Shown here piece by piece: positions 624 to 9,342 of a DNA stretch of 64,000 nt. Origin of the DNA: Frondihabitans sp. PAMC 28766 (GTDB taxonomy: Bacteria > Actinomycetota > Actinomycetes > Actinomycetales > Microbacteriaceae); assembly GCF_001577365.1 (NCBI RefSeq), contig NZ_CP014513.1:310001-374000 (forward strand), written 5' to 3'. Numbering within the stretch: the first letter of the stretch is position 1; each line of letters begins with the position of its first letter. Under the pieces are notes generated by a model that was given only the letters and a program-made list of their open reading frames with translations, made no database searches and was not told where the DNA came from. The position numbers were made by a program, and so were the translations under genes.

Positions 624-653
624 TTAGCAGCAGCCCTCGCAGCACTCGTCCAT
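624..653 (-). CDS. Nine-residue Cys-rich micropeptide behind arsC
   Basis: The frame ATG...TAA encodes MDECCEGCC, four cysteines in nine residues. A textbook Shine-Dalgarno (GAGGAGGTGA) ends five bases before the ATG, one of the best ribosome sites in the window. The ORF starts 39 bases after the arsC stop on the same strand and is followed by the hairpin at 574-605, so it sits as the last gene of an arsC transcript. Paired CC motifs suggest a thiol ligand for arsenite or a soft metal; that is inference. I do not recognise a named family. Alternatively it could be a regulatory mini-ORF sensing cysteine supply, although those known in actinobacteria lie upstream of the gene they control. Confidence 0.6.
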   Translation of the reverse strand: MDECCEGCC

Positions 654-8709: not shown

Positions 8710-9342
8710 ATGCCTGACGACTCGACAGACGACGTCCCGAAGCGACGCCGGGAGCGTCTCAGCGCGGACGAGCGACGCGAGCAGATCATCCGAGGCGCCA
8801 GCGAGACCATCGCAGCCCACGGCTACGCGAACGCCACTCTGACTTTGATTGCCTCGACAGCTGGTGTTGCCAAAGGGTTGATCTGGCATTACTTCGACGA
8901 CCGCGACGACGTGATGGAGCACACCGTCGCCCACCTGGCCAAGCGACTTCGCGAAGCACTTGTCACAGACCTGGACGTGTCCGCACCGGCACCCGACGTG
9001 ATTCGTGCCGTCTTCGCCGGCACCGCCCTGTTCACCCGCACTCACGGAACCGATCTCGACACGATCGACCAGATCGTTCATAACCTCCGGAGCTCTGACG
9101 GCAAACAGCGATTGAGCATGCTCGACTACGAAACCACGTACGCCGAGCACGAGCTGCTCCTCGCGCGCGGCCAATCCGAGGGAACGATTCGCGCCGCGGA
9201 TCTTCGCATCATGGCACTGGGATACCAGGGCCTGATCGATTCCCTGATCGGCTACCTCCAAGCCCACCCGGAAGCAGACCCTGCCACCCATGCAGCACAA
9301 CTCGCAGACCTCTTCCTCTCGGGAGTCGAAATCCACTCGTGA
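8710..9342 (+). CDS. TetR-family regulator of the membrane-protein operon
   Basis: A 210-residue regulator. After a charged N-terminal tail, RREQIIRGASETIAAHGYANATLTLIA... and VAKGLIWHYFDDRDDVMEHT form the TetR HTH; the rest is an all-helical ligand domain. It lies four bases after the membrane protein and is probably autoregulated through the TGAC-N6-GTCA repeats at 8256-8298. Ligand unknown. Confidence 0.88.
   Translation: MPDDSTDDVPKRRRERLSADERREQIIRGASETIAAHGYANATLTLIASTAGVAKGLIWHYFDDRDDVMEHTVAHLAKRLREALVTDLDVSAPAPDVIRAVFAGTALFTRTHGTDLDTIDQIVHNLRSSDGKQRLSMLDYETTYAEHELLLARGQSEGTIRAADLRIMALGYQGLIDSLIGYLQAHPEADPATHAAQLADLFLSGVEIHS

Follow-up and report, generated by a model that had tools for sequence, protein, structure and literature searches.

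Cysteine-rich micropeptides encoded next to arsC: a candidate family of ribosomally made thiol ligands for arsenite

A nine-codon, cysteine-rich open reading frame (ORF) behind an arsenate reductase gene is best read, with slightly better than even confidence, as a real gene whose product belongs to a new family of thiol peptides made on ribosomes, which would be produced together with ArsC as ligands for As(III) or other soft metals. Its reading frame is conserved among relatives, and it is linked both to arsC genes that are divergent from arsR, on either side of which it can lie, and to CmtR-like regulators. From these patterns, the peptide is predicted to be translated, regulated, able to bind metal(loid)s and able to hand them over.

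A nine-codon ORF behind arsC

Within the window (the whole 64-kb stretch of DNA that was analyzed), the minus strand at positions 653-624 encodes the 9-aa micropeptide MDECCEGCC, which has four cysteines and ends at a TAA stop (codons ATG GAC GAG TGC TGC GAG GGC TGC TGC TAA). The initial annotation had placed an ORF at 624..653, 39 nt past arsC, without giving a strand; the spacing between the arsC stop and the micropeptide ATG is indeed 39 nt, and the strand is minus. The Shine-Dalgarno sequence that it described five bases ahead of the ATG was also found, as GAGGAGGTGA at 668-659 (minus strand). This had been called one of the best such sites of the window, a claim that was examined through the exact 10-mer only: GAGGAGGTGA is present as a single copy on the two strands of the window, with 0.19 copies expected and with at least one copy in 16 of 100 shuffled windows.

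The arsC gene that precedes the micropeptide (minus strand, 693-1103) encodes an arsenate reductase of the LMW-phosphatase family; it matches PF01451, and the NCBIfam arsenate-reductase models score below their cut-offs. Divergent from it is arsR (plus strand, 1191-1559), the product of which is an ArsR/SmtB-family regulator that matches NF033788 above the cut-off as well as PF01022. Two operator-like palindromes, CATCGACAACCGTCAATG ahead of arsC (minus strand, 1117-1134) and CATTGACAGCCATCAATG further into the arsC/arsR interval (minus strand, 1154-1171), are the only zero-mismatch matches to the operator-like pattern in the 64 kb, and they are predicted to be bound by ArsR. On the strand of arsR, positions 1567-2954 contain a second ArsR-family regulator gene followed at once by a gene for a histidine-rich CDF-family cation transporter.

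Past the micropeptide, a hairpin of -22.9 kcal/mol (minus strand, 605-574) starts 18 nt beyond the stop codon and is the putative 3' end of the arsC-micropeptide unit. It corresponds to what had been described as a strong terminator, a description that is only partly borne out, since the hairpin has no clear T-run and a consensus terminator scan of positions 1-2000 made no call. The minus strand also carries a protein-kinase-domain gene (1-459), which starts approximately 115 nt past the hairpin.

Recurrence of the ORF in related loci

Nine codons alone are weak evidence, and an ORF of this size could be a chance occurrence in GC-rich DNA that has no product. Micro-ORFs were counted by a strict scan (ORFs of 7-45 aa with four or more Cys, a Cys content of 17% or higher, and a ribosome site), in which the only match on both strands of the window was the MDECCEGCC ORF. 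Across 160 arsC loci drawn from searches of the genus, family, and order (441,548 bases), the same scan returned 22 sense ORFs in 18 loci, alternative starts included, whereas the antisense strand gave none and five Markov-shuffled versions of the sense strand averaged 0.0. A Cys-Cys end is shared by all 22 without having been a condition of the scan. The chance explanation is contradicted by these counts, and frame, Cys codons, and place are all conserved; even with 15 of 38 like loci lacking a member, it is considered extremely improbable.

Two further scans used looser criteria. A slightly looser one covered 20 longer stretches (9-16 kb each), of which 18 had been picked for holding a then-known member, and found 15 ars-linked members and one unrelated ORF. 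A relaxed scan of 187 loci, in which a Cys-Cys end was demanded and a ribosome site was not, found 26 sense and 2 antisense ORFs and added six plausible members (L028, L165, L202, L208, L238, and L242). Two of the 26 sense ORFs look unrelated and were excluded (L145 and the second ORF in L227), and one of the two antisense ORFs, L283, was counted as a member.

Other searches returned little. No member was present on the arsC strand of an additional 40 arsC loci taken from the order and class lists, which include loci of the same family, and the 27 loci added by a class search contained L283 as the only member. Similarly, a scan of four annotated ars plasmid regions found no member, a tblastn search of plasmids with one 23-mer member gave no match, and of nine ORFs in viral stretches that contain the pattern, none is a Cys-rich micropeptide. 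The exact motif TGYTGYNNNGGNTGYTGYTRR was searched over 149 relatives and set aside as too short to inform: it matches in 35 genomes, most of these matches not being established micro-ORFs, and the reversed control matches many genomes too.

Composition and sequence constraint

As assembled here, the family consists of 31 peptides of 9-27 aa. These are the 23 members at arsC loci with a divergent arsR (including that of the window and the six from the relaxed scan), L283, which comes from a different family of the class, and seven of the 69 stretches returned by a pattern scan of genome contigs (three from Agromyces, two from Arthrobacter, one from Naasia, and one from Omnitrophota). Duplicates were dropped (L185, which duplicates L184, and five more duplicate arsC loci), as was L333, and L133, L128, and L105 were among the pattern-scan stretches that were left out. 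Also left out were two Cys-rich ORFs without a CC end or a recognized metal context: MDHCCPDCCPYCCPP in a Thermoproteota metagenome-assembled genome (MAG; L138, position 1859) and MDECCTNCGTLREECCCPCGQE in Glycomyces (L080, position 7028), each of which has a strong ribosome site.

The composition of the 31 members (601 residues) is 29.8% Cys and 22% Asp plus Glu, with one Arg and no Lys. The C-terminus is Cys-Cys in all 31, which is partly the selection criterion itself; each member has one to three vicinal CC pairs, and the number of cysteines is even in 28 of 31. CCxxCC was considered as a family motif and was dropped, as the window's MDECCEGCC is the one member that has it. The archaeal ORF of L138, which is outside the 31, also contains CCxxCC. 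Six members of 21-27 aa were compared with Pfam-A and NCBIfam at E values up to 10 and matched no family; the 9-mer of the window is too short for the tool.

In seven close pairs (one sequence used twice), Cys codons are kept in 36 of 36 comparisons, and the pooled pN/pS over all codons is 0.28 (0.26 over eight pairs). The non-Cys codons of the seven pairs have a pN/pS of 0.47 (17 replacements and 11 silent changes), and thus the non-Cys part of the peptide also appears to be constrained, albeit loosely and on small numbers.

Two gene orders at arsR-divergent arsC loci

An ArsR homologue is divergent from arsC in 38 of the 221 distinct arsC loci (227 in total), and a member is present at 23 of these 38 but at only 1 of the remaining 183 (Fisher 3.5e-20 with loci as the unit; the loci are related by descent, so that this value is not a probability of independent events). 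The sole member among the 183, L283, also has an arsR-arsC pair nearby. At the 23 loci, eight members lie 24-40 nt behind arsC and 15 lie before it. Conservation of a short Cys-rich ORF behind arsC in relatives had been set as the test of the initial annotation, and the eight distinct loci, the window included, show such conservation; together with the 15 loci before arsC and with further members at Cd/Pb-type and other ars loci (see below), they support translation of the peptide and its link to metal(loid) resistance.

The peptide is not essential, since 15 of the 38 loci have no member within the longer stretches and, in the genus of the window, only 2 of 7 genomes (G000 and G001) have a member at an arsC locus, the other five being without one. 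Among the genus genomes, G006 has the arsC closest in identity (84%) and no member in 11 kb. On a tree of 40 arsC proteins, the starred branches force at least four changes of the upstream label and at least two of the downstream label; the peptide has thus been gained, lost, or moved repeatedly.

An operator-like palindrome is present 31-64 nt ahead of the coding start in 12 of the 15 upstream-class members, and with a looser pattern such palindromes are found ahead of arsC in 7 of the 8 downstream-class loci. Considered with the gene layout of the two classes, this suggests that one ArsR-type unit of two genes occurs in both orders. In L288, a locus from another family of the class, an 82-aa ORF (8997-9245) separates arsR from the micropeptide and shares the strand of the latter. 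Because this ORF comes before the peptide there, a reading of L288 as a one-gene unit was dropped.

An ORF ahead of arsC could also be a cysteine-sensing leader, in which the ribosome would stall at Cys codons when Cys-tRNA or thiols are low under arsenic, alter the next hairpin, and thereby control the next gene. Hairpin energy showed no clear difference between the micropeptides (median -24.35 for 32 peptides, i.e., the 31 plus L138) and 60 arsC 3' ends (-20.75) and was rejected as a marker; therefore, stem length was compared with shuffles instead. A stem of at least 9 bp is found within 60 nt past the stop in 13 of the 15 upstream-class members (5.5% of shuffles), and 12 of these 13 stems begin 2-11 nt past the stop. 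The corresponding counts are 4 of 8 for the downstream class (7.7% of shuffles) and 3 of 8 for other members. Ribosome-controlled attenuation would require a hairpin as near to the stop as this, and the leader is the main rival for the upstream class. There is also precedent in mycobacterial polycysteine short ORFs (Canestrari et al. 2020, as cited in PMC9094748) and, in an ars operon, in the internal hairpin that PMC4562236 describes as a probable attenuator in ars1 of Bacillus sp. CDB3.

However, eight of the 23 members, including that of the window, are behind arsC, and in four of seven downstream layouts, which were based on mechanically called ORFs, a convergent gene comes next, so that nothing is left there to attenuate. 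Additionally, the Agromyces members come after a CDF gene, the non-Cys residues are under some constraint, and a ribosome site by the strict list precedes 17 of 23 members. A leader is therefore an unlikely explanation of the family. The earlier suggestion of a thiol buffer for arsenite or a control element is supported in part, in that the conservation fits a thiol buffer and a control element is possible for the upstream class.

Neighboring genes and other genomic settings

The seven members from the pattern scan differ in their neighbors. In Agromyces (3 of 3 loci), the genes ahead of the member encode a CmtR-like regulator and a CDF-family protein; the match in L075 scores 176 bits in comparison to a cut-off of 150, and the others are 91-92% identical to it. 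The CmtR-like regulator of the Naasia locus scores 134, below the cut-off. The 8 kb read at these four loci contained no ArsC match. Both Arthrobacter members (2 of 2 loci) are directly behind a thioredoxin reductase gene. Lastly, an Omnitrophota MAG encodes the ten-residue MDCCDGAGCC between an arsR-like gene and acr3, followed by an arsC-like gene; for a peptide of this length, either common descent or convergence could account for the occurrence.

These settings bear on whether the peptide could be a thiol partner of ArsC, replacing mycothiol or thioredoxin as the reductant or thiol acceptor when arsenate is reduced, and not acting as a sink for the product. Such a role would fit the tight pairing with arsC in 23 loci, the thioredoxin reductase ahead of the Arthrobacter members, and the dithiol of the C-terminal Cys-Cys. 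It is nevertheless rather improbable, as the Agromyces and Naasia loci with their CmtR-like regulators have no such ArsC match and as related arsC genes manage without the peptide (182 of 183 non-divergent loci).

An ArsO-like flavoprotein gene lies within 3.5 kb at 9 of the 15 divergent loci without the peptide, in comparison to 0 of the 24 member arsC loci. Eight of the nine matches have at least 50% identity, and the remaining one (L362) has 29%. An ArsO-like FAD protein adjoins arsC or arsR in L348-L354 and L358. The counts, from loci that are related by descent, suggest that the peptide and the ArsO-like flavoprotein may be alternative second steps after ArsC. This is not a rule, since Arthrobacter L090 and Naasia L113 have both, with the ArsO-like gene just behind the peptide.

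For membrane exporters and channels, an ACR3 match within 3.5 kb of arsC was found at none of the 24 member loci. ACR3 scores above the cut-off in 4 of 23 member genomes, elsewhere in the genome, in comparison to 0 of 13 comparison genomes; absence of ACR3 was therefore dropped as a correlate of the peptide, as none of the 13 exceeds the cut-off either. PF02040 matches occur in 24 of 36 genomes at no more than 99.8 bits and may be other permeases. An aquaporin-family (MIP) gene is found by arsR at 7 of the 24 loci with a member and at 3 of the 15 without one (p 0.71), and the MIP channel was accordingly rejected as a partner of the peptide. In L293 (3980-4651) and six other member loci, the MIP gene follows arsR and could be a passive exit for arsenite.

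If the peptide were a metallochaperone, it would pass As(III) on to an exporter or channel in the membrane, in the way that ArsD supplies ArsA. Its paired cysteines, the MIP gene by arsR in some member loci, and the Omnitrophota member that precedes acr3 are consistent with such a role, but MIP genes are no commoner than at loci without the peptide, ACR3 exceeds the cut-off in few member genomes, and the PF02040 matches are weak. Therefore, this role is regarded as distinctly doubtful.

Discussion

The peptide is found at either end of the arsC unit; in CmtR-type loci it comes after a CDF gene, and in four of seven downstream layouts it follows the last gene and has a convergent neighbor. A product acting in trans best explains these positions, and on genomic evidence their shifting favors it. 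Paired thiols carried by an acidic chain are ligands for As(III), Cd, and Pb. An in-trans product whose paired thiols suit these metal(loid)s points to a dedicated thiol ligand made with ArsC.

As envisaged, arsC and the micropeptide would form a two-gene unit that is divergent from arsR and probably under ArsR. Entry of arsenic would release ArsR from the DNA, and ArsC would convert arsenate to arsenite. The peptide made at the same time, a short acidic chain with one to three vicinal Cys pairs and a Cys-Cys C-terminus, would capture As(III) with its thiols (or Cd and Pb in the CmtR-linked members), and the captured As(III) would be kept off other thiols until its export or a presumed hand-over. 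Against a thiol ligand, the members vary in length (9-27 aa) and in their non-Cys residues, and a 9-mer could be quickly degraded.

More tentatively, and with somewhat less than even confidence, the peptides may be a gene-encoded counterpart of phytochelatins. They would be minimal ribosomal thiol peptides that, within a single actinobacterial family, make up a recurrent, position-free arsR-arsC module. In this reading they would usually alternate with the ArsO-like flavoprotein as the step that follows ArsC and would have been recruited to CmtR/CDF loci, with a perhaps independent occurrence in Omnitrophota. If this is true, then few gene products that detoxify metal(loid)s are smaller, and a CCxxCC motif occurs naturally among them.

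ORFs of this length are passed over by gene finders, and thus annotation may lack an entire family of resistance peptides. If arsenite is bound, then a product dedicated to detoxification needs no more than nine amino acids, which would be a test of minimal functional gene size, and the peptides would be ready-made arsenic-binding tags and sensors. For the ars field, the question is why some arsR-divergent arsC loci have a thiol peptide and others a flavoprotein.

Searches of open-access full texts turned up no account of such peptides in ars or cmt loci, and comparison is therefore with systems that share some of their features. Bacterial metallothioneins such as SmtA and MymT are roughly 50 aa in length. 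The micropeptides are likewise small, Cys-rich, and in metal-responsive units, with linkage to a regulator; however, they have 9-27 aa and a C-terminal CC pair, and the six tested members have no Pfam or NCBIfam model. The engineered tetracysteine tag CCxxCC binds biarsenical dyes, and CCEGCC in the peptide of the window has identical spacing. The micropeptide is natural, however, and this spacing is found in only 1 of 31 members and is therefore not the rule of the family.

ArsD, which is described in PMC4562236 as an arsenite metallochaperone with vicinal cysteine pairs, resembles the micropeptides in these pairs and in being encoded in ars operons, whereas the micropeptides are far too short for a folded domain, and the six tested members match no model. 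The polycysteine short ORFs of mycobacteria, which are attenuators according to Canestrari et al. 2020 as cited in PMC9094748, are also actinobacterial and rich in Cys codons, and the ORFs described here are in part ahead of an operon gene and a hairpin. In contrast, 8 of the 23 are behind arsC, that of the window has a Shine-Dalgarno sequence, the loci are of arsenic and Cd/Pb type, and all end in Cys-Cys. Moreover, the mycobacterial attenuator is the first ORF ahead of the regulated genes, which the member of the window and seven others of the 23 are not; the other 15 precede arsC. Finally, phytochelatins are enzymatically made gamma-Glu-Cys polymers, as outlined in PMC8041291. Both they and the micropeptides are very short, acidic, cysteine-rich, and tied to soft-metal defense, whereas the micropeptides are encoded in DNA, would be ribosomal products if translated, contain vicinal Cys pairs, and terminate in Cys-Cys.
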